Virus record (IMG/VR): IMGVR_UViG_3300009610_000028
Span: 1 to 64,000 of that record
Source of the DNA: a virus
Length of the DNA stretch: 64,000 nt
Strand: one strand, 5' to 3'
Positions 5,144 through 59,274 of this stretch are shown in pieces. The number at the start of each line of letters is the position of its first letter. Position 1 is the first letter of the stretch. Position numbers and translations under genes: made by a program. Under the pieces are notes generated by a model. The model was given only the letters and a program-made list of their open reading frames with translations, had not been told where the DNA came from and did not search any database.

Positions 5144-6124
5144 ATGAAGGGCAAGACTTGGTTCACGGCGGACACGCACTTCGGCCACGACCGGATAATG
5201 GAGATGACAGGTCGGCCGTACAAGCACATTGACGAGCACGACCGCGAAGTCATCTACACGATCAACAAATATGTCGCCGAAGAAGACAGGCTCTTCATCC
5301 TCGGTGACTTCGCTTGGCGTGCTGCGCAGTCCTACGTGGATCGCATTCGCTGCCCGAACCTGCATCTGATCTGGGGCAATCACGACCGCGCGAACTTTGG
5401 CAAAGCATTCAAGACCACCGAGGACGTGACCGAGATCAAGCTTGGTGAGATCAAGGTCTTCCTCTCGCATTACCCGCACTGCTACTGGCCATCGAGTCAC
5501 TACGGATCACTGCACCTGTACGGCCACCTTCACTCCGAGCGCGAACGGACGCTCGATGAGATTTGGCCGACACGGAGATCAATGGACGTGGGCCTGGACA
5601 ACATCCGCCGCCTCTTCGGCGAGCTTCGTCCCATCCAAGATGTCGAGATCATCAACCGCCTGATGGCTCGACCTGGCCATGACCCGGTGACGTTCTACCG
5701 CGAGCAAGAGCAGAAACGCCTGGCCGAACATCTGAACGTCCCGCCCGCATGGACGGTGCCGGAGTTCTTCGGGGAAGAATTGAAGCCGCCCACGGCGATC
5801 CCTGTTGAACGTCAGTGGAAGCGTGCCCTGGATCGCGTGCGCCAGTTCCTCGGTGCCGATCTCCGCAAGTACAGCTACGTGGAATTCCACGCCCTGGCTT
5901 GCACACCTGGCCGGCGGCGATTCACGGATCACTCGCGGGCCGAACGGTTCCTCGATCTGCTCAAAGCCGAGCGGAATCATCGTTGCGAAGGCTCGGTCAT
6001 TCGTTATCGCTCAGACGAGTTGCTTTCTGAGCTTGGCTTGATTACCAATGAGCGATACCGCAGCAGCGAGACGTGGTATTCGTCGGTGCTGCAAGTCACA
6101 ACGAACGAGCCGGGAGCGACGTGA
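5144..6124 (+). CDS. Calcineurin-like metallophosphoesterase with C-terminal extension
   Basis: 326 residues, start after GGGAGGAGCGG. The N-terminal ~190 residues carry the full metallophosphoesterase signature: DTHFGH (D10, H12), LGDF (D55), GNHD (N79, H80, D81), SHYP (H109) and GHLH (127-130). The family hydrolyses phosphodiesters or phosphomonoesters with two metal ions; phage members often act on nucleotides or nucleic acid, but the substrate here is not visible. The last ~130 residues are an additional region of unknown role, longer than stand-alone phage enzymes of about 180-200 residues. Confidence 0.85.
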   Translation: MKGKTWFTADTHFGHDRIMEMTGRPYKHIDEHDREVIYTINKYVAEEDRLFILGDFAWRAAQSYVDRIRCPNLHLIWGNHDRANFGKAFKTTEDVTEIKLGEIKVFLSHYPHCYWPSSHYGSLHLYGHLHSERERTLDEIWPTRRSMDVGLDNIRRLFGELRPIQDVEIINRLMARPGHDPVTFYREQEQKRLAEHLNVPPAWTVPEFFGEELKPPTAIPVERQWKRALDRVRQFLGADLRKYSYVEFHALACTPGRRRFTDHSRAERFLDLLKAERNHRCEGSVIRYRSDELLSELGLITNERYRSSETWYSSVLQVTTNEPGAT

Positions 6125-6525
6125 TGGCGAATTGGATGGAGTGGCCTGACGAGAAAGAGCAACTCTGGCAAGAGTGGCTCAAGAACAAGCCACCGATCAT
6201 CAAGGAACTCGCGGCGAGATTCCCGCCGTACAAATTGTTCCGACTCAAGCCCACAGGGCAACGAGGACCGATTGTCTCGTTGAGCGAAAGCGGTACGGTC
6301 ACGATGCAGATCACCGGGGACTTCAACCGGGTGATGTTCGCAAAGAATGTGTTCGGTCTAAATCCTGACGATCTCGAAGAGTGTGATCTGCCAGGGCCAG
6401 ACGAGCTACTCGGCGACGAGTGCGAGGAACGAGGCATTGATCCAGAGAATGTGATTCCGATGATTCGTTCACAGATGATTCTCGATGGGCACCTGCCGAT
6501 ACCGCCGAGGAAACCCAATGACTGA
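6124..6525 (+). CDS. 133-residue hypothetical protein
   Basis: ATG at 6124 (MANWMEWPDEKEQLWQEW) overlaps the preceding stop as TGATG. Acidic C-terminal half (DDLEECDLPGPDELLGDECEERG) after a basic middle. It ends ..HLPIPPRKPND and overlaps the next gene by 8 bases. No recognised domain. Confidence 0.7.
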   Translation: MANWMEWPDEKEQLWQEWLKNKPPIIKELAARFPPYKLFRLKPTGQRGPIVSLSESGTVTMQITGDFNRVMFAKNVFGLNPDDLEECDLPGPDELLGDECEERGIDPENVIPMIRSQMILDGHLPIPPRKPND

Positions 6526-11989: not shown

Positions 11990-12378
11990 TCTATGGGTCG
12001 CCACTAGCATAGCTTCCGAGGAAGCCATTCTCCAGGTCGCCAAGCACAATGCGGCCGAGTAAACAGGCCACGGGCCATCAACTCCTTGGGCGGCCTAACC
12101 ACCGGGCGGTTCCTGCGGCGGGACGGTGGTTTGCGGAGACGGAGCACTCGTTTCATACGTGAAACCCCTGCGAGAAGAGAAGTGGGACCAACGACTTCTC
12201 TTTCTTACCCGATTCTTAACTGCGGGGAAGGGATTTTCTTGGAGAATTGGCCGTTTGGGGCTGCGTCTCGCCAGCATGACCCACATATTCGGAAATCTTT
12301 GACAGCGGATTTGACACCGGCCAGGCTCGGTGTAATCTTGAGTTATACAACGTCTCGCCAGCTTTCTGAGATACATCC
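11990..12378. promoter_or_regulatory. Control region of the recombinase module
   Basis: 389 bases without a gene. It contains the inverted repeat GTTTCA-TACG-TGAAAC (near 12150), AGAGAAGT-N10-ACTTCTCT (near 12177), two copies of CGTCTCGCCAGC (12264-12275 and 12351-12362), and the promoter at 12311-12338, whose spacer sits inside ACACCG-N8-CGGTGT. The arrangement resembles a resolvase regulatory and recombination (res) site next to its own gene; this is an inference. Confidence 0.5.
12311..12338 (+). promoter_or_regulatory. Sigma70-like promoter of the serine recombinase
   Basis: TTGACA (12311-12316), 16-base spacer, TAATCT (12333-12338), about 40 bases upstream of the recombinase ATG. The ACACCG/CGGTGT inverted repeat overlaps the -35 and spacer, which would allow autoregulation. 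Confidence 0.6.
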
Positions 12379-13107
12379 ATGCGTACCAACCCGATCACCA
12401 AGATTGTCGCCTACCTTCGCCTCAGCAAGCCGAAGAAGGGCAAAAACAAAGCGGAGACGATTGCCGATGCTTATGGAATCGAGCACCAGCGCCAGGTCAT
12501 CCAGCGGTTCGCCGACTCCATTGGGGTCAAGGTCATCGCCGAGTTCGTGGAAGTCGAAACGGGCAGTGACGCGGATCGCGTGGAGCTTGGCAAGGCCATT
12601 CACCGGGCGCGGATGCACAAGGCCACGCTCGTGATCGGCAAGCAGGACCGCTTGGGCCGCAATGTTCACTTCATCAGCACGTTGATGAACGAAGGGATTG
12701 ATTTTGTCTCCGCCGACCGCCCAGACGCTGACCGGATGGAGATTTACTTTCGAGCCATCATCGACGAAGAGGAACTTCGCCGGATCGGACAGCGGACGAA
12801 GGACGGCTTGCAGACCGCCAAAGAGAAGGGCAAGCTGCTCGGCTCGTCACGTCCTGGCCACTGGGAGAACCGCGAACACCTGCGTGGCTTCAAGCAAGCC
12901 ACCGAAGCCAGCGCGAAGGCCCGCGTCCAGCGTGCCCTCGCCGCCTACGAACCAGTCATCGAGATCGTCCGCGACTTGGAAGGGCAGTCGCTGACCGTGA
13001 TCGCCATGCGATTGAACGAGCTTGGCCATGTCACCACGGCCGGCAAGCCCTTCACGAAGCAGAACGTGTCTCGCATCACGAAAATTTTTGAACGAGAAGC
13101 CGCTTAG
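12379..13107 (+). CDS. Serine recombinase, resolvase/invertase type
   Basis: 242 residues. N-terminal resolvase fold: IVAYLRLS with the nucleophile Ser16 and Arg14, Q38 (EHQRQV), and LVIGKQDRLGRN with Asp90, Arg91 and Arg94, the standard active-site set. A long helix (AKARVQRALAAYEPVIEIVRDL) leads to a C-terminal helix-turn-helix (SLTVIAMRLNELG...KQNVSRI, about 200-236). The length fits small resolvases and invertases, not the 450-600-residue large serine integrases. Predicted to cut and religate DNA at a dimer site, possibly the upstream control region. Next to a degenerate paralogue. Confidence 0.85.
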   Translation: MRTNPITKIVAYLRLSKPKKGKNKAETIADAYGIEHQRQVIQRFADSIGVKVIAEFVEVETGSDADRVELGKAIHRARMHKATLVIGKQDRLGRNVHFISTLMNEGIDFVSADRPDADRMEIYFRAIIDEEELRRIGQRTKDGLQTAKEKGKLLGSSRPGHWENREHLRGFKQATEASAKARVQRALAAYEPVIEIVRDLEGQSLTVIAMRLNELGHVTTAGKPFTKQNVSRITKIFEREAA

Positions 13108-13117
13108 GAGCACAACC

Positions 13118-13645
13118 ATGAAGCTGAAACTGATTGCTTATCTGTGGGAAGGGGTCCGAGGCCCGACGCCCACGGTGTTTTCGATTTCGCAGCAGAGAAA
13201 AAACATCAGACAGATCGCGGCGAAGAATGACGCCGAGATTCTGTGCGAGATCATCGACAAGGACGGCGAAGGAATCACGAAGGCGATTCGCATGGCCCGC
13301 GCCAAACATGCTACATTGGCCCTCGGCAAGCCCGTGCAAAACGTCCGCGTCACACCGTACTTGCGGAAGGCGCTCTCCAAATCGGGCGTGAAAGTCCTCA
13401 CTGTGAAAGACGACACCGGCTTCCAACAGGCCGCCGAGGCGTCCGCCGGGCTGCGGACGAAGCGGGCACTGGACGCCTACCAGTTCATCATCGAGATCGT
13501 CCGTCAGCAGAAGGCGGCCGAGAAAAACATGGCTGAGATTGCCGAGCACTTGAACGGCCTCGGCCACATGACCACTGCCGGCCAGCAGTTCACGCGAAAG
13601 AACCTGCACCGCATCGTGTCCATCTTCGAGCGAGAGGCGGCATGA
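13118..13645 (+). CDS. Degenerate serine-recombinase paralogue, catalytic residues lost
   Basis: 175 residues, ATG 13118 after TTAGGAGCACAACC. Aligns with the preceding recombinase: IAYLWEG against VAYLRLS (nucleophile Ser and Arg gone), ATLALGKPVQNVRV against ATLVIGKQDRLGRN (Asp and first Arg gone), and about 50 residues of the catalytic-core helix region missing. The C-terminal part is well kept: QAAEASAGLRTKRALDAYQFIIEIVR and the HTH ending IFEREAA, identical to its neighbour. Likely binds the same DNA without recombining it, perhaps as repressor, co-factor or directionality factor. Confidence 0.75.
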   Translation: MKLKLIAYLWEGVRGPTPTVFSISQQRKNIRQIAAKNDAEILCEIIDKDGEGITKAIRMARAKHATLALGKPVQNVRVTPYLRKALSKSGVKVLTVKDDTGFQQAAEASAGLRTKRALDAYQFIIEIVRQQKAAEKNMAEIAEHLNGLGHMTTAGQQFTRKNLHRIVSIFEREAA

Positions 13646-18611: not shown

Positions 18612-18643
18612 TTGGAATTTCGGCGACTTTTTGCTTCTAGTAT
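18612..18643 (+). promoter_or_regulatory. Phage-type promoter, copy A
   Basis: TTGGAAT (18612-18618), 13 bases, TGCTTCTAGTAT (18632-18643); the gene start is 20 bases further. Two other copies, at 59243-59274 (minus) and 59555-59586 (plus), keep the same two boxes and exactly the same spacing. Confidence 0.75.
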
Positions 18644-18663
18644 CTATGAGCAAAGGAACCGCA

Positions 18664-30962: not shown

Positions 30963-32200
30963 GCATCATTTACATCAGCAGTAGGGGCGTGGCTGGCCCA
31001 CAAGGCATTCAAGGCGACCCCGGTGCCGGTGTAATCAATTGGCTCGGCGTTTGGGACAGCGGCACTACTTACGAAATCAACGATGCTGTTTCCTACCAAG
31101 GAAGCAGCTACATCTGCCTCGTTCAGCATTCCAACCAAGTTCCTCCGAACCCGACCTATTGGGGCGTGCTCGCGGAAGTTGGTGACACAGGTGCAACCGG
31201 CCTGACCGGCGACACTGGTCTTGGAATCACCTGGCTTGGCGACTGGGACAGCGGTGACCCATACGTCGTCAACGATGCAGTGGTCTTGGATGGCACGAGT
31301 TACATCTGCATCCAGGATCATACGAATCAACAACCGCCGAATGTCGCGTACTGGAACATCCTCGCACAGAAGGGTGGCACTGGAGCGACGGGCAACACGG
31401 GCGCAACCGGCGCTCGTGGCCTCACGTGGCGAAACGCTTGGAACAGCATCACGGCCTATGCAGTGGACGATGCCGTTCAATACAACGGCAGCGCATACAT
31501 CTGTCTTCAAGCACACACGAATCAGTTTCCAACGAACCCTACCTATTGGAGTCTGCTGGCTTCAAAAGGTGACACTGGCACGACGGGCGACACCGGATTA
31601 ACCGGAGCGGCCGGTGCTGACGGGCAGGGCTTCACCTGGCGTGGCTCATGGAGCGGCGCAATCACCTACGCTCCCTACGACGTAGTTGAGTTCGACGGGT
31701 CCAGCTACAACTGCATTCTCGGCCACACGAATCAAACCCCACCGAATCCCACCTACTGGGAGACGATGGCCCAAGCTGGAGAAGATGGCGGCGGTGGCGG
31801 CAGTGGCGAAGGGCTGGTCACCGAGGCCGAGAACACGAACGCTGGTTCAATCTCAAAATGTCGCGTGGTCTATATCAGCGGCGTTGAAGAAGTTGATCTG
31901 GCGCGGGCTAACAACACAACCACCGCCAAAGCTTTTGGCCTGGTTGCGGATAACTCCATCTCTGCGAGTGTCTCCGGCAACATTCAGATCAGTGGCATTC
32001 TCGAAGCCACAACCGGCCAGTGGGACACTGTGACCGGGCAAAGCGGTGGGCTGACATCAGGTGCCATCTATTACCTCAGCGCAGCCACCGCAGGCGCAAT
32101 GACGACGACAGCGCCTGTCTCTGGATTCATCGTCGAACTCGGCAAGGCGCTGAGCACAACCAAATTTGACACCACGATAAGGCGGCCGATTCGGCTGTAA
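30959..32200 (+). CDS. Adhesion fibre 1: collagen-like spacers and CBM5/12-type repeats
   Basis: 413 residues. MSIIYISSRGVAGPQGIQGDPG begins a collagen-like Gly-x-y segment. Four repeats of about 45 residues of the type W.G.W(D/N)S...Y..NDAV..xGssYICx..HTNQ.PPN.TYW..LA resemble carbohydrate-binding module family 5/12 and are separated by GDTGATGLTGDTG-like triplet spacers. The C-terminal ~130 residues are homologous to the whole protein at 32205. Predicted sugar-binding fibre. Paralogue at 35207-36577 shares only the repeat part. Confidence 0.75.
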   Translation: MSIIYISSRGVAGPQGIQGDPGAGVINWLGVWDSGTTYEINDAVSYQGSSYICLVQHSNQVPPNPTYWGVLAEVGDTGATGLTGDTGLGITWLGDWDSGDPYVVNDAVVLDGTSYICIQDHTNQQPPNVAYWNILAQKGGTGATGNTGATGARGLTWRNAWNSITAYAVDDAVQYNGSAYICLQAHTNQFPTNPTYWSLLASKGDTGTTGDTGLTGAAGADGQGFTWRGSWSGAITYAPYDVVEFDGSSYNCILGHTNQTPPNPTYWETMAQAGEDGGGGGSGEGLVTEAENTNAGSISKCRVVYISGVEEVDLARANNTTTAKAFGLVADNSISASVSGNIQISGILEATTGQWDTVTGQSGGLTSGAIYYLSAATAGAMTTTAPVSGFIVELGKALSTTKFDTTIRRPIRL

Positions 32201-32204
32201 ATAA

Positions 32205-32687
32205 ATGGCTGCTCGCAAACCGCTAGTCATCAACGGCGGACAAATCGAACAACTCCAAGCCGGCGATACGCTTGATGCGTCAGTCACCGAAGTGGATGTG
32301 GTCAGCAAGACCAATGACAACGCCAGTCCAATCGTCATTGGCAACGTTGTCTATAACAAGACAGACGGTGACGTTGACCTGGCTCGCGCAAACGCGCAGG
32401 GCACCGTTCAAGTTCTCGGCTTGGTCCGAGACGCAAGCATTGCCGCAGCCGCCGCCGGCAACATCCAGACAGACGGAATCCTGACAGCCACTACCGGCGA
32501 ATGGGACGCTGTGACTGGAGGGTCTGGTGGTCTCTCGCCCGGCGTGCCGTACTACGTCAGCGCCGCGACAGCGGGCTTGATTACAAGCACCGCACCTTCT
32601 AGCGCCGGTCAGTTTGTTGTGCGCATTGGACTGGCCAGTAGCGCTACCTCATTGGACATCTCAGTCGAACCCCCGATCAAGCTATGA
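32205..32687 (+). CDS. Fibre-tip domain protein (160 aa)
   Basis: MAARKPLVINGGQIEQLQAGDTL..., then a beta domain (DVDLARANAQGTVQVLGLVRDASI...LTATTGEWDAVTGGSGGLSPGVPYYVSAATAGLI) clearly related to the C-terminus of the 30959 fibre. The opening motif KPLxIxxGQIExxQxGD is shared with the next protein, probably a common attachment segment. Confidence 0.7.
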   Translation: MAARKPLVINGGQIEQLQAGDTLDASVTEVDVVSKTNDNASPIVIGNVVYNKTDGDVDLARANAQGTVQVLGLVRDASIAAAAAGNIQTDGILTATTGEWDAVTGGSGGLSPGVPYYVSAATAGLITSTAPSSAGQFVVRIGLASSATSLDISVEPPIKL

Positions 32688-34891
32688 CCATCCGCAAACC
32701 GCTTACTATCACCAACGGACAGATTGAAGCATTCCAATCCGGTGATCTAGTCAGCGGAGTTGCGAATGTTCTCACCAACACAACTCTCTATGTTGAGACT
32801 ACGGGCAACGACACGACCGGCGACGGTTCGATTGGCAATCCTTGGTTGACCATCGGGAAAGCACTCAGCTATCTCGCGGACAAATGGATCGAGAAAGACA
32901 ACTTTGTCACGATCAACGTTGGTGACGGCAACTTTGCCATCTCTTCGTCGCTCACGATCAAGCATCCCTGCGGCGACCGGATTACGATCACTGGCACCAA
33001 CACCCACGACAAAACGTTGTCGAGCATTCAGAGTTCCTCCGGCTCGGCCGGTGCCTGGTCATACGTGCTCAATGTCAATACGGTGACCAACATTGCCGTG
33101 AATGACTACGTGCTCATTCGCGGGCCAGCCAATGGGACTCGACCAGAGTTTATCGCTGGTTGCCACGAAGTCACCAACGTCGATGCAGTCAATACTCGCA
33201 TCACAATCGCGGTCAAGCATAAGCACACTTCTGTGGCGTCTGGCTCTGTCACAGGCACGGTCACGTGTGTGAAGACACGAGTGACAGTCACGGGCGTGGA
33301 CGGATTGGTAGTCGATCCCAATCACACGCTTGGCTTCATGGACAAGGTAGTGTTCGTGGGCGATGCCACGGCAACCAAGAGTGGAATTCTTAGTGGTCAT
33401 GGTCTGGCCGCAGCCAATACCCATCTGTGGGTTGGCAACAATGTAGGCGTCGTGAACTTCCAGTATGGCGTACAAGTTGTCGGCGGCTCGTTCCGTGGCA
33501 ACATTATCGCGTCTGGTTGTGTTTCTGATGGCGCACGTACATTCGCTGGTGCCAAAATCTATGCTTCGAGTGGAATCACGGCTACTGGCTGTGGTGCCTT
33601 TGGAGTCTTTGCCACGCTGAATGGTTCGATCTATTGCCCGGCATCCCGGCTAACAGGTAACTCTGACAGCGGCGCTGGCGCTAGCGCTGGCGGGGTAGTT
33701 AGTTGTCCCTCGGCCCATCTGACGGGAAATACGCTCAACGGTGCTGTTGCTGAAAATCAAGGTTGCATTCTGTGCGACCTGGCTTTTATCAACAACAACT
33801 TGGACAATGGCATCATAGCTCTGAATCAAAGCCATATCAGTTCGCCCTCAGCGACGATCCAAACGAACTTCAAAGGCGTGTACTGCGACAAAGGTTCTTA
33901 CATCTATGTCGAAGGCAGTACCATCTCCAGCAACACGAGCGGAAGTTACAACATTTCCGCAGATACGCTTTCAGTCAATGGCTCGTACATTGACACGGGC
34001 GCAGCGGCAGGCTTCCCAATTCACGGTTCACCAGTGCCTGGTGGTCGTTTGACCCTGGAAAGCAACGTGGCGGTCTCAACCACCGATCAAGCTTCCGCTT
34101 CGACTATTTACTACAAATCATTTCAACACGGCCATATCTGGCTCTACAACGGCTCGGAGTGGCTCCGGCGAACTCTGCCAGGCGGCCAAATCTCCGCAGC
34201 GTGCCCCACAGCTTCCGGCTCAAACAAGCCTTATGACGTTTTCATTTATGATGATAACGGCACACCAACCTTAGAGTTCCTGGCGTGGACGAATAACACG
34301 ACACGCGCAACTGGCCTCCTTAATACTAGCTCTCCCTACTTGTGGACAAAGAGTGGTGACACCACGCGGCTCTACGTCGGGACGATCTATGTAACTACTA
34401 GCGGTAATACAAACGACACACTGCGCAGTCGCCACGTGTGGAATATGTTTAACCGCGTAGTACGCGATATGTTTTGGATCGGCCCTCAAGCAAGTTACAC
34501 ATACAGTGCGAACAATGTTGCACGCTATGTGAATGGTGGCACAGCACCATCGCTTTCAATAGTTGTTGGACTCTCTGAGGACATCTACCAAGCCGAAGCG
34601 CGAGTTACCGCCTCCAAATCTGTTGGAGCGAATGGTACAGCGATTGATATGGGCATCGCTCGCGATGCAACCAATACCACATTTGCGGTTGGTTGCCAGG
34701 CGGGAGTGATCCGTTCTACGACGGCAACTGATCTTGACCTCAGAACGCTGCAAACCACGTTCAGCGAAATCGCCCCTATTGGCTACCACGAATACAACTG
34801 GACTGAGCGTACTGGTACGAATTCCGTGACTCTCAACGTGGTTGGCACGAATGCCAATGAATGCGGCATGTTCGGTTGGTTCCCAATGTAG
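32684..34891 (+). CDS. Tailspike-like beta-helix protein (735 aa)
   Basis: N-terminus RKPLTITNGQIEAFQSGD matches the attachment segment of the 32205 protein. Then LYVETTGNDTTGDGSIGNPWLTIGKAL starts a right-handed beta-helix with many short Gly/Ser/Asn strands (about residues 45-440), typical of tailspikes that bind or cleave surface polysaccharide. The rest is C-terminal beta domains. No catalytic residues can be assigned. Confidence 0.75.
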   Translation: MTIRKPLTITNGQIEAFQSGDLVSGVANVLTNTTLYVETTGNDTTGDGSIGNPWLTIGKALSYLADKWIEKDNFVTINVGDGNFAISSSLTIKHPCGDRITITGTNTHDKTLSSIQSSSGSAGAWSYVLNVNTVTNIAVNDYVLIRGPANGTRPEFIAGCHEVTNVDAVNTRITIAVKHKHTSVASGSVTGTVTCVKTRVTVTGVDGLVVDPNHTLGFMDKVVFVGDATATKSGILSGHGLAAANTHLWVGNNVGVVNFQYGVQVVGGSFRGNIIASGCVSDGARTFAGAKIYASSGITATGCGAFGVFATLNGSIYCPASRLTGNSDSGAGASAGGVVSCPSAHLTGNTLNGAVAENQGCILCDLAFINNNLDNGIIALNQSHISSPSATIQTNFKGVYCDKGSYIYVEGSTISSNTSGSYNISADTLSVNGSYIDTGAAAGFPIHGSPVPGGRLTLESNVAVSTTDQASASTIYYKSFQHGHIWLYNGSEWLRRTLPGGQISAACPTASGSNKPYDVFIYDDNGTPTLEFLAWTNNTTRATGLLNTSSPYLWTKSGDTTRLYVGTIYVTTSGNTNDTLRSRHVWNMFNRVVRDMFWIGPQASYTYSANNVARYVNGGTAPSLSIVVGLSEDIYQAEARVTASKSVGANGTAIDMGIARDATNTTFAVGCQAGVIRSTTATDLDLRTLQTTFSEIAPIGYHEYNWTERTGTNSVTLNVVGTNANECGMFGWFPM

Positions 34892-34898
34892 GTGACAG

Positions 34899-35201
34899 AT
34901 GAGAGACATTCTCGCTTTGCATAATGCGTTACGAGACGCAGGACTCGACATCTCCGGTGTCAGTGATCCAGGGCCAAACGCCTACATCAACGGATGGAAC
35001 ACCACGCCCACAGAAGCTGAGCGTGCTCAAGCGGGTGCCATTCTAAAAGCATTCGATTGGACCGAGAAGCCAGCACTAACTCTCGCGACTATTGAAGCGC
35101 TTTCAAGTGATGAGAAATCGCGACTGATTGATTTGCTACTGACACAAGCGGCTGGCGTGCGACCGGACCTATTGGACATGGCGAAGAAACCAAAGGCGTA
35201 G
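34899..35201 (+). CDS. 100-residue hypothetical protein
   Basis: MRDILALHNALRDAGLDISGVSD, helical, with Pro-rich middle. It lies between the beta-helix spike and the second fibre; perhaps a fibre chaperone or minor virion protein. Not recognised. Confidence 0.6.
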   Translation: MRDILALHNALRDAGLDISGVSDPGPNAYINGWNTTPTEAERAQAGAILKAFDWTEKPALTLATIEALSSDEKSRLIDLLLTQAAGVRPDLLDMAKKPKA

Positions 35202-35206
35202 GACAA

Positions 35207-36577
35207 ATGAGTATCATTCATGTCAGTAGCCGTGGTGTTGCCGGTCCCCAAGGCATCCAAGGTGATCCAGGACCAGGCGTCATTAACTGGCTAGGCGAGT
35301 GGTCAGACGCCACCGCCTACGAAGAGAATGATGCGGTAACCTGGCTCGGCACGAGCTATATCTGCATCGTCGCTCACACCGATCAAGAGCCACCTGATCC
35401 CACCTACTGGGACGTGCTCGCTTCCAAAGGCGATGAGGGTGACGCGGGCGACCAAGGTGATGCCGGCCTCAGCATTGAGTGGCAAGGCAATTGGGATAGT
35501 GGTCAACCATACGTGGTGAATGATGCTATCACACTCGATGGCACCAGCTACATTTGCACGGTCAATCACACAAATCAATCGCCGCCCAACGCTGGCATTT
35601 GGAATGTGCTCGCCGCGAAAGGTAGTACAGGTCTCACTGGAAACACCGGCCTCACGGGTCCGATTGGAATCACCTGGCGAGGCGCGTGGAACTCAATCAC
35701 GAGTTATGCCCTCAATGACGCAGTGACTTCTGGTGGCAGTGACTACATCTGCATTCAAGCTCACAGCAATCATCAACCGCCCAACGTCATCTACTGGGAC
35801 TTTGTAGCCTCGAAGGGCGACACTGGCACCACGGGTGACACTGGCGAGACAGGTGACACTGGTGCTACCGGCGATGGCTTCACATGGGAAGGTGAATGGA
35901 GCGGCGCAGAACCTTACCAAGTGCGTGATGTCGTTCAGTTCGATGGATCGAGCTACAACTGCATCCTCGGACACACCAATCAAACGCCACCGAATCCCAC
36001 CTATTGGGAATTGATGGCGTCGAAGGGTGACACTGGCACTTTTGACACAGACCCACTCACAGGCGCTGAGACCGGCACGGACGTAACCGCACAAACGGTG
36101 TCCACTCATCGGCGACCTGAGACGATCCAATCGACGCACACATTCACTAACCAAAGCGTCACGATCACGGATCACACGACGGATGGCGGCCACGGCGGTG
36201 TGAAAATCTTCGACTATCCCGAAGGCCATTTCGTGGTCGTTGGTGCTGTCGGCAATCTCACGATTGCTCGCGTCGGCACGAACCTGACAGCAACTGCTGC
36301 TCTGGTGTTCTCACTCGGTACGACGGTCGCTGGTATCGACAACGATACGCTCACCGGAACCGAAGCTGACATCATTCCGTCAACAGCCGCCACGCTGAGT
36401 GGTGGAACAGTCACGGTCAACTTTCAGAAGTCAGCCTTGCAATTCATCGACGGCACCGCCGGAGCGGCCGACGCCTACTTCAACGTGGTGTCTCCCGATG
36501 CTGGCATTTCTGGCAATGATGCTGTGCTCGTCAATGGCACTGTCATCCTCACCTTGATTCGCTTGGGTGACAACTAA
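35207..36577 (+). CDS. Adhesion fibre 2, paralogue with a different C-terminus
   Basis: 456 residues. The first ~275 residues repeat the plan of fibre 1 (start MSIIHVSSRGVAGPQGIQGDPGPG, collagen-like spacers, four CBM5/12-like repeats). The remaining ~180 residues are unrelated to fibre 1 (TVSTHRRPETIQSTHTFTNQSVTITDHTTDGGHGGVKIFDYPEG...). Duplication followed by replacement of the tip domain is the simplest explanation. Confidence 0.75.
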   Translation: MSIIHVSSRGVAGPQGIQGDPGPGVINWLGEWSDATAYEENDAVTWLGTSYICIVAHTDQEPPDPTYWDVLASKGDEGDAGDQGDAGLSIEWQGNWDSGQPYVVNDAITLDGTSYICTVNHTNQSPPNAGIWNVLAAKGSTGLTGNTGLTGPIGITWRGAWNSITSYALNDAVTSGGSDYICIQAHSNHQPPNVIYWDFVASKGDTGTTGDTGETGDTGATGDGFTWEGEWSGAEPYQVRDVVQFDGSSYNCILGHTNQTPPNPTYWELMASKGDTGTFDTDPLTGAETGTDVTAQTVSTHRRPETIQSTHTFTNQSVTITDHTTDGGHGGVKIFDYPEGHFVVVGAVGNLTIARVGTNLTATAALVFSLGTTVAGIDNDTLTGTEADIIPSTAATLSGGTVTVNFQKSALQFIDGTAGAADAYFNVVSPDAGISGNDAVLVNGTVILTLIRLGDN

Positions 36578-59242: not shown

Positions 59243-59274
59243 ATACTAGAAGCAGAATGTTCGCCGGATTCCAA
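59243..59274 (-). promoter_or_regulatory. Phage-type promoter, copy C (leftward)
   Basis: Read leftward: TTGGAAT (59274-59268), 13 bases, TGCTTCTAGTAT (59254-59243). It is 54 bases upstream of the primase-helicase ATG. Same spacing and 12-base box as copies A and B. Confidence 0.75.

Follow-up and report, generated by a model that had tools for sequence, protein, structure and literature searches.

A serine recombinase and its catalytically dead paralogue in phages most likely infecting Planctomycetota

We found that many Planctomycetota phages carry a working serine recombinase beside a kept sister protein that lacks the cutting chemistry and apparently binds DNA. The dead twin probably controls the recombinase or helps to assemble it rather than cutting DNA. 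The analysis concerned a tandem gene pair, P0001 and P0002, in a stretch of 64,000 nucleotides (the window) belonging to a virus record of 83,414 bases; the broader active/dead pattern in related phages is more interesting than the pair first flagged there. The explanation that we favour, at slightly less than even chances, is that P0002 and the dead paralogues of the relatives are non-catalytic, recombinase-derived DNA-binding proteins that act as regulators at the recombinase promoter. Resolvases combine catalytic, architectural and regulatory roles, which are hard to separate because one protein plays all three. Natural active/dead pairs would assign these roles to different genes, so that their division could be tested directly, and would document a site-specific recombinase turned into a non-catalytic regulator or scaffold under selection across many phages.

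The pair lies at 12,379–13,645 of the window, where the original prediction had placed an active recombinase in tandem with a dead paralogue; the ORFs, their coordinates and the active-site set of P0001 were confirmed. P0001 (12,379–13,107, plus strand) encodes an active-type small serine recombinase of 242 aa with a Resolvase domain, the linker GSSRPGHWENREHLRG and a Recombinase-like HTH, and P0002 (13,118–13,645, plus strand) encodes a catalytically dead, shortened paralogue of 175 aa. The genes are separated by 10 bp, and GGAG precedes the ATG of P0002 at 13,118. Against Pfam, P0001 matched PF00239 (Resolvase, E 7e-19) and PF07508 (Recombinase, above cut-off), and its sequence matches in the PDB were invertases and the gamma-delta and Tn3 resolvases. 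Residues R14, S16, R67, D90, R91, R94 and R139 are the equivalents of gamma-delta R8, S10, R45, D67, R68, R71 and R125; the Resolvase domain thus holds the R8, S10, R45, D67, R68 and R71 positions that define a small serine recombinase. Judged from these residues, P0001 is an intact enzyme of this class with the full active-site set. Repeat searches around the window pair gave no crossover site for P0001 and no convincing invertible segment or res-like repeats.

In the alignment with P0001, P0002 lacks the equivalents of Ser10, Asp67, Arg68, Arg71 and R8, and likewise those of R45 and R125; YLRLS has become YLWEG and DRLGRN is lost. The predicted absence of the nucleophilic Ser and the active-site Asp/Arg is therefore correct. 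About 50 core residues had been described as lost; the missing part comprises about 55 residues and corresponds to helix E plus the GSSRPGHWENREHLRG linker, at approximately 113–169 of P0001. The linker helix had been thought to be kept together with the HTH; it is deleted, and only the HTH part of that claim stands. The retained helix and HTH region (13,418–13,642, plus strand) covers the last 75 aa and is 56% identical to P0001 170–242 (BLASTP E 6e-23). No other family member matches it better than P0001 does, and the two proteins share the terminal IFEREAA, as had been noticed. The N-terminal part of P0002 shows weak similarity to any family member, and the P0002 sequence gave no Pfam Resolvase match. 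Structure prediction, which had been proposed as a check, recovered the alpha/beta core of a catalytic domain and the C-terminal HTH and lacked the linker helix: in the AF2 model (pLDDT 88.7) the core is intact and a single 35-residue helix (residues 99–133) continues straight from it to the HTH. The nearest folds in Foldseek include the serine recombinases Bxb1, 3g13, 3guv and TP901-1, with modest TM scores of 0.37–0.45. Because helix E is lost, P0002 may not dimerise as the other dead proteins do.

P0002 was found only in this phage and in one second contig that is 99.98% identical, and it is missing from L004 and L005, the two nearest recombinase relatives. A tblastn search of phage and plasmid collections with P0002 gave nothing useful and matched no phage record. 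By itself, P0002 is a private and possibly young gene. It could be a decaying duplicate, a pseudogene in progress with a function unrelated to that of the dead paralogues elsewhere, which we regard as unlikely: its restriction to one phage, the missing residues and a long branch in the tree (2.03, versus 0.65 for P0001) fit such decay, but the ORF is intact, has a ribosome-binding site and shows coding-like GC3. The GC contents at the three codon positions (0.58/0.40/0.79) have a structure similar to those of P0001 (0.61/0.40/0.77). Many changes at the conserved residues are synonymous, 19 of the 41 identical P0001/P0002 residues in two aligned stretches being encoded by different codons, and the predicted fold is confident and compact. 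Duplicates do decay in this group, since L004 carries at 5953–6171 a 73-aa N-terminal recombinase fragment, a decayed duplicate, directly upstream of its intact active gene.

For the search in related phages, P0001 and two viral relatives were aligned and 25 virus loci were retrieved; broader alignments added viral and genome loci, and pairs were found by reading all ORFs of the retrieved loci and the whole records. This yielded 17 active/dead pairs on 16 related virus records, one of which (G007) holds two, so the search for the same arrangement in relatives succeeded for the pairing and failed for P0002 itself. In all 17 pairs both genes are on the same strand and the dead gene lies upstream, about 40 bp to 5.5 kb ahead of its partner. 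The window pair is the exception, with a dead gene that is downstream and shortened, the paired dead proteins being full length. An active partner accompanies 17 of the 20 full-length dead genes; the other three (G004, G005, G006) have none in their records, which may be fragments. On G007 (103 kb), the two pairs (L031 and L065) are separate, and one starts right at the end of the contig, which probably reflects trimming.

Compared with their active partners, all 17 paired dead proteins have Gly in place of Asp67. Ser10 is lost in 15 (to Trp in nine and Gly in four) and kept in L038 and L050, and the Thr and Gln that follow it are mostly lost. The uniform change of Asp67, together with the two members that keep Ser, suggests that Asp was lost before Ser. 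In active enzymes, Arg68 and Arg71 contact the scissile phosphate; each is kept in 15 of the 17 dead proteins, Arg68 being Lys in the other two. Of the partner-invariant residues, the N-terminal domain retains 56% on average and the linker and C-terminal domain (CTD) 89%; most of helix E, the linker and the HTH is preserved. For the dead protein of L012, a complete resolvase fold including helix E was predicted. Among nine closer dead genes, pairwise dN/dS was about 0.18–0.46 with dN below dS in both domains, and these genes therefore encode maintained proteins. With 17 pairs and dN/dS well below 1, simple decay was ruled out as a general explanation for the relatives. The proposal that DNA binding had been selected without catalysis is supported far more widely than the original pair could show, by the related pairs and the purifying selection on their dead genes; P0002 itself, absent from L004 and L005, fares less well under the refuting condition set beforehand. 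An initial genome scan with a narrow alignment gave no matches, a search of 392 genomes of Planctomycetota at E<=1e-60 yielded no dead paralogue, the active-type protein of G030 alone passing, and a viral-contig motif scan for the linker returned no records beyond the known ones.

A tree of 93 rows was built with the catalytic columns left out. The 17 dead proteins formed one group with L021 and L024, which are single-gene loci with D and S present (support 94/98), while L027+L028 and L026 fell elsewhere, outside this group. P0002 was placed beside P0001 (98/73) within a 100/100 clade with L004 and L005. Five changes are required by this tree, four of them forced by the starred branches. The AU test did not reject a tree holding P0002 with the dead clade (p-AU 0.21, for a short and long-branched protein), nor one joining all dead genes in a single origin (p-AU 0.077). 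At least four origins of dead genes is our preferred reading of the tree, short of proof, and P0002 looks like an inactivation separate from the dead clade. The similarity of its CTD to that of P0001 fits a local duplication; alternatively, the CTD of an older dead gene may have undergone gene conversion.

The relatives share the order c1 (on the opposite strand), dead gene, c8, active gene, c4 and c9, with a gpA-type terminase further on. The c1 gene (about 135 aa) lies directly upstream of the dead gene and divergent from it, and c8 encodes about 140 aa. By eye, c4 resembles SprT-type metalloproteases; Pfam gave no match for c1, c8 or c4 and none above cut-off for c9. None of these four genes was detected in the 64-kb window. 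At about 20 loci, a member of the c1 family (e.g. L055 1110–1529, minus strand) is transcribed away from the first recombinase gene; c1 is a candidate switch gene. At L026, L027 and L028, the place next to c1 is taken by a dead recombinase whose record lacks an active partner. Planctomycetota are the most likely hosts, because the best genome matches belong to this phylum and a 444-kb contig of a Planctomycetota MAG contains this block of phage genes together with a single active recombinase. The idea that the recombinase is an integrase located at the edge of a prophage was unsupported, since at G040 the gene is embedded in the phage block, which extends to either side of it, although many records have no tyrosine integrase.

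A conserved element lies upstream of the recombinase genes. In the window, it is a promoter/operator-like sequence, TTGACACCGGCCAGGCTCGGTGTAATCT (12,311–12,338, plus strand), located about 40 bp upstream of P0001 and holding the inverted repeat ACACCG-N8-CGGTGT. It is the sole match in the 64 kb of the pattern TTGA[ACT]N14-19GTGTA[AT]NNT (expected 0.15), which was composed after inspecting these same sequences and of which 13 of 15 matches in the pair loci and the window fall no more than 200 bp ahead of a recombinase gene. For the majority of pair loci this is the c1-adjacent recombinase gene, and in L053 related 39-bp copies precede both the dead and the active gene. It looks like an ordinary extended sigma-70 promoter, and may be simply a strong one. 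The P0001 leader also contains a perfect 9-bp inverted repeat, AAGAGAAGT-N10-ACTTCTCTT (12,175–12,202).

We regard the dead proteins as pseudo-recombinases: they have lost the chemistry of strand cleavage and, we infer, have been kept for DNA binding. Such a protein would bind sites of recombinase type in the promoter region of the recombinase genes and, in the related phages, also in that of the divergent c1. It would thereby control how strongly the active recombinase and the neighbouring genes are expressed, as TnpR of Tn3 does from res besides its role in resolution. In the ancestral state, one active protein would have done both jobs, a state comparable to L060, L063 and L124, where a single active recombinase neighbours c1; once the gene was duplicated, the copy beside c1 would have retained binding alone. 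The fixed place of the dead gene divergent from c1 and the shared promoter element favour such regulation. The dead N-terminal domains, by contrast, are conserved beyond the need of a simple HTH repressor, with Arg68 and Arg71 kept, and in the window the order is reversed and c1 was not detected. TnpR of Tn3 was named for repressing the transposase by binding res, and the Tn3/gamma-delta protein, also a small serine recombinase, represses from its own sites, which hold the transposase and resolvase promoters (PMC7157771). There one protein does both jobs, whereas here active and dead genes coexist and no res site was identified.

A different role, possible but doubtful in our estimate, is that of architectural subunit: dead subunits would occupy the accessory (regulatory) half-sites of a synaptic complex and the active paralogue the crossover site, so that catalysis and architecture, united in one protein in Tn3 and Sin, would be divided between two genes. 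Tn3 resolvase recombines efficiently when sites II and III are occupied by catalytically inactive S10A domains, though not when site I is (PMC9943657), and Sin at its regulatory site is inactive and synapses via its DNA-binding domains (PMC2428073). The full resolvase fold of the dead proteins, modelled for L012 with helix E, the kept R68/R71, the purifying selection on their N-terminal domain and the partner present for most full-length dead genes agree with such a subunit. The partnerless dead genes, however, argue against an obligate recombination subunit, searches near the pairs gave no array of res-like sites, and P0002 has no helix E. Regulation is preferred on account of the dead genes that lack an active partner and of the loss of that helix from P0002; regulation and architecture may both hold. 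We give a similarly low probability to the wider proposal that in a group of planctomycete phages a serine recombinase was split into a catalytic subunit and a dedicated pseudo-enzyme one, that selection has maintained the latter in diverse phages and that it evolved more than once. If true, the pairs would amount to a Tn3-like synaptosome encoded naturally by two genes; in the Tn3 complex, S10A subunits are known to work at the accessory sites.

It is very improbable that the dead protein is a dominant-negative modulator or directionality factor, joining active dimers or tetramers to block or steer strand exchange. In the relatives, the paralogous N-terminal domains and helix E could allow hetero-oligomers, but dead genes exist without an active partner, P0002 has no helix E, no att-type sites were identified, and the active gene of G040 is flanked on both sides by phage genes and hence is not at a prophage edge. 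Among the roles originally suggested, regulator and assembly partner stay viable and no evidence favours a directionality factor.

The Sin site II complex is similar in that inactive subunits at the regulatory site control active ones at the crossover site (PMC2428073). In Sin the inactivity is conformational and concerns the same protein, whereas here it is mutational and lies in a separate gene. CcrA and CcrB of SCCmec, both with active sites, are likewise two paralogous serine recombinases encoded by adjacent genes. Unlike the present proteins, they are large serine recombinases for excision and integration (PMC7581432), and the NCBIfam CcrA/CcrB equivalog cut-offs were far off: no Ccr model matched P0001, and the L012 proteins scored at most 29 bits against 700–900. 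The 'DNA invertase' of rV5/phAPEC8-type phages (phrog_125) is also a small serine recombinase of large phages, about 37% identical; it is single, and tblastn gave no match to P0002 in that phage collection. In agreement with the earlier remark that no such phage system was known, none of active/dead recombinase design was found in the open-access literature.

Some further features were observed. In L045 (7465–8061; the same as L010 6791–7387), a third gene overlaps the end of the active recombinase gene and encodes an HNH-like motif, CFECD...HH (by eye), fused to the linker and HTH; the recombinase DNA-binding half would thus be joined to a different, possibly nuclease, domain. Dead recombinases at L011 (1–996) and L027 (5096–5974) apparently carry the C-terminal HTH segment twice in tandem. 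Elsewhere in the window, positions 1–1700 contain dense short direct and inverted repeats, with a perfect 27-nt inverted pair (121–147 and 1077–1103) and GGCGGAGAC-type units. Imperfect inverted repeats of 34–38 nt at 59,243–59,280/59,549–59,586 and 18,612–18,645 have ATACTAGAAGCAGAAT-like sequence in common, with arms far apart, and a 92-nt repeat occurs five times over 4.7 kb (31,274–36,018) with 63–85% identity to the reference copy.
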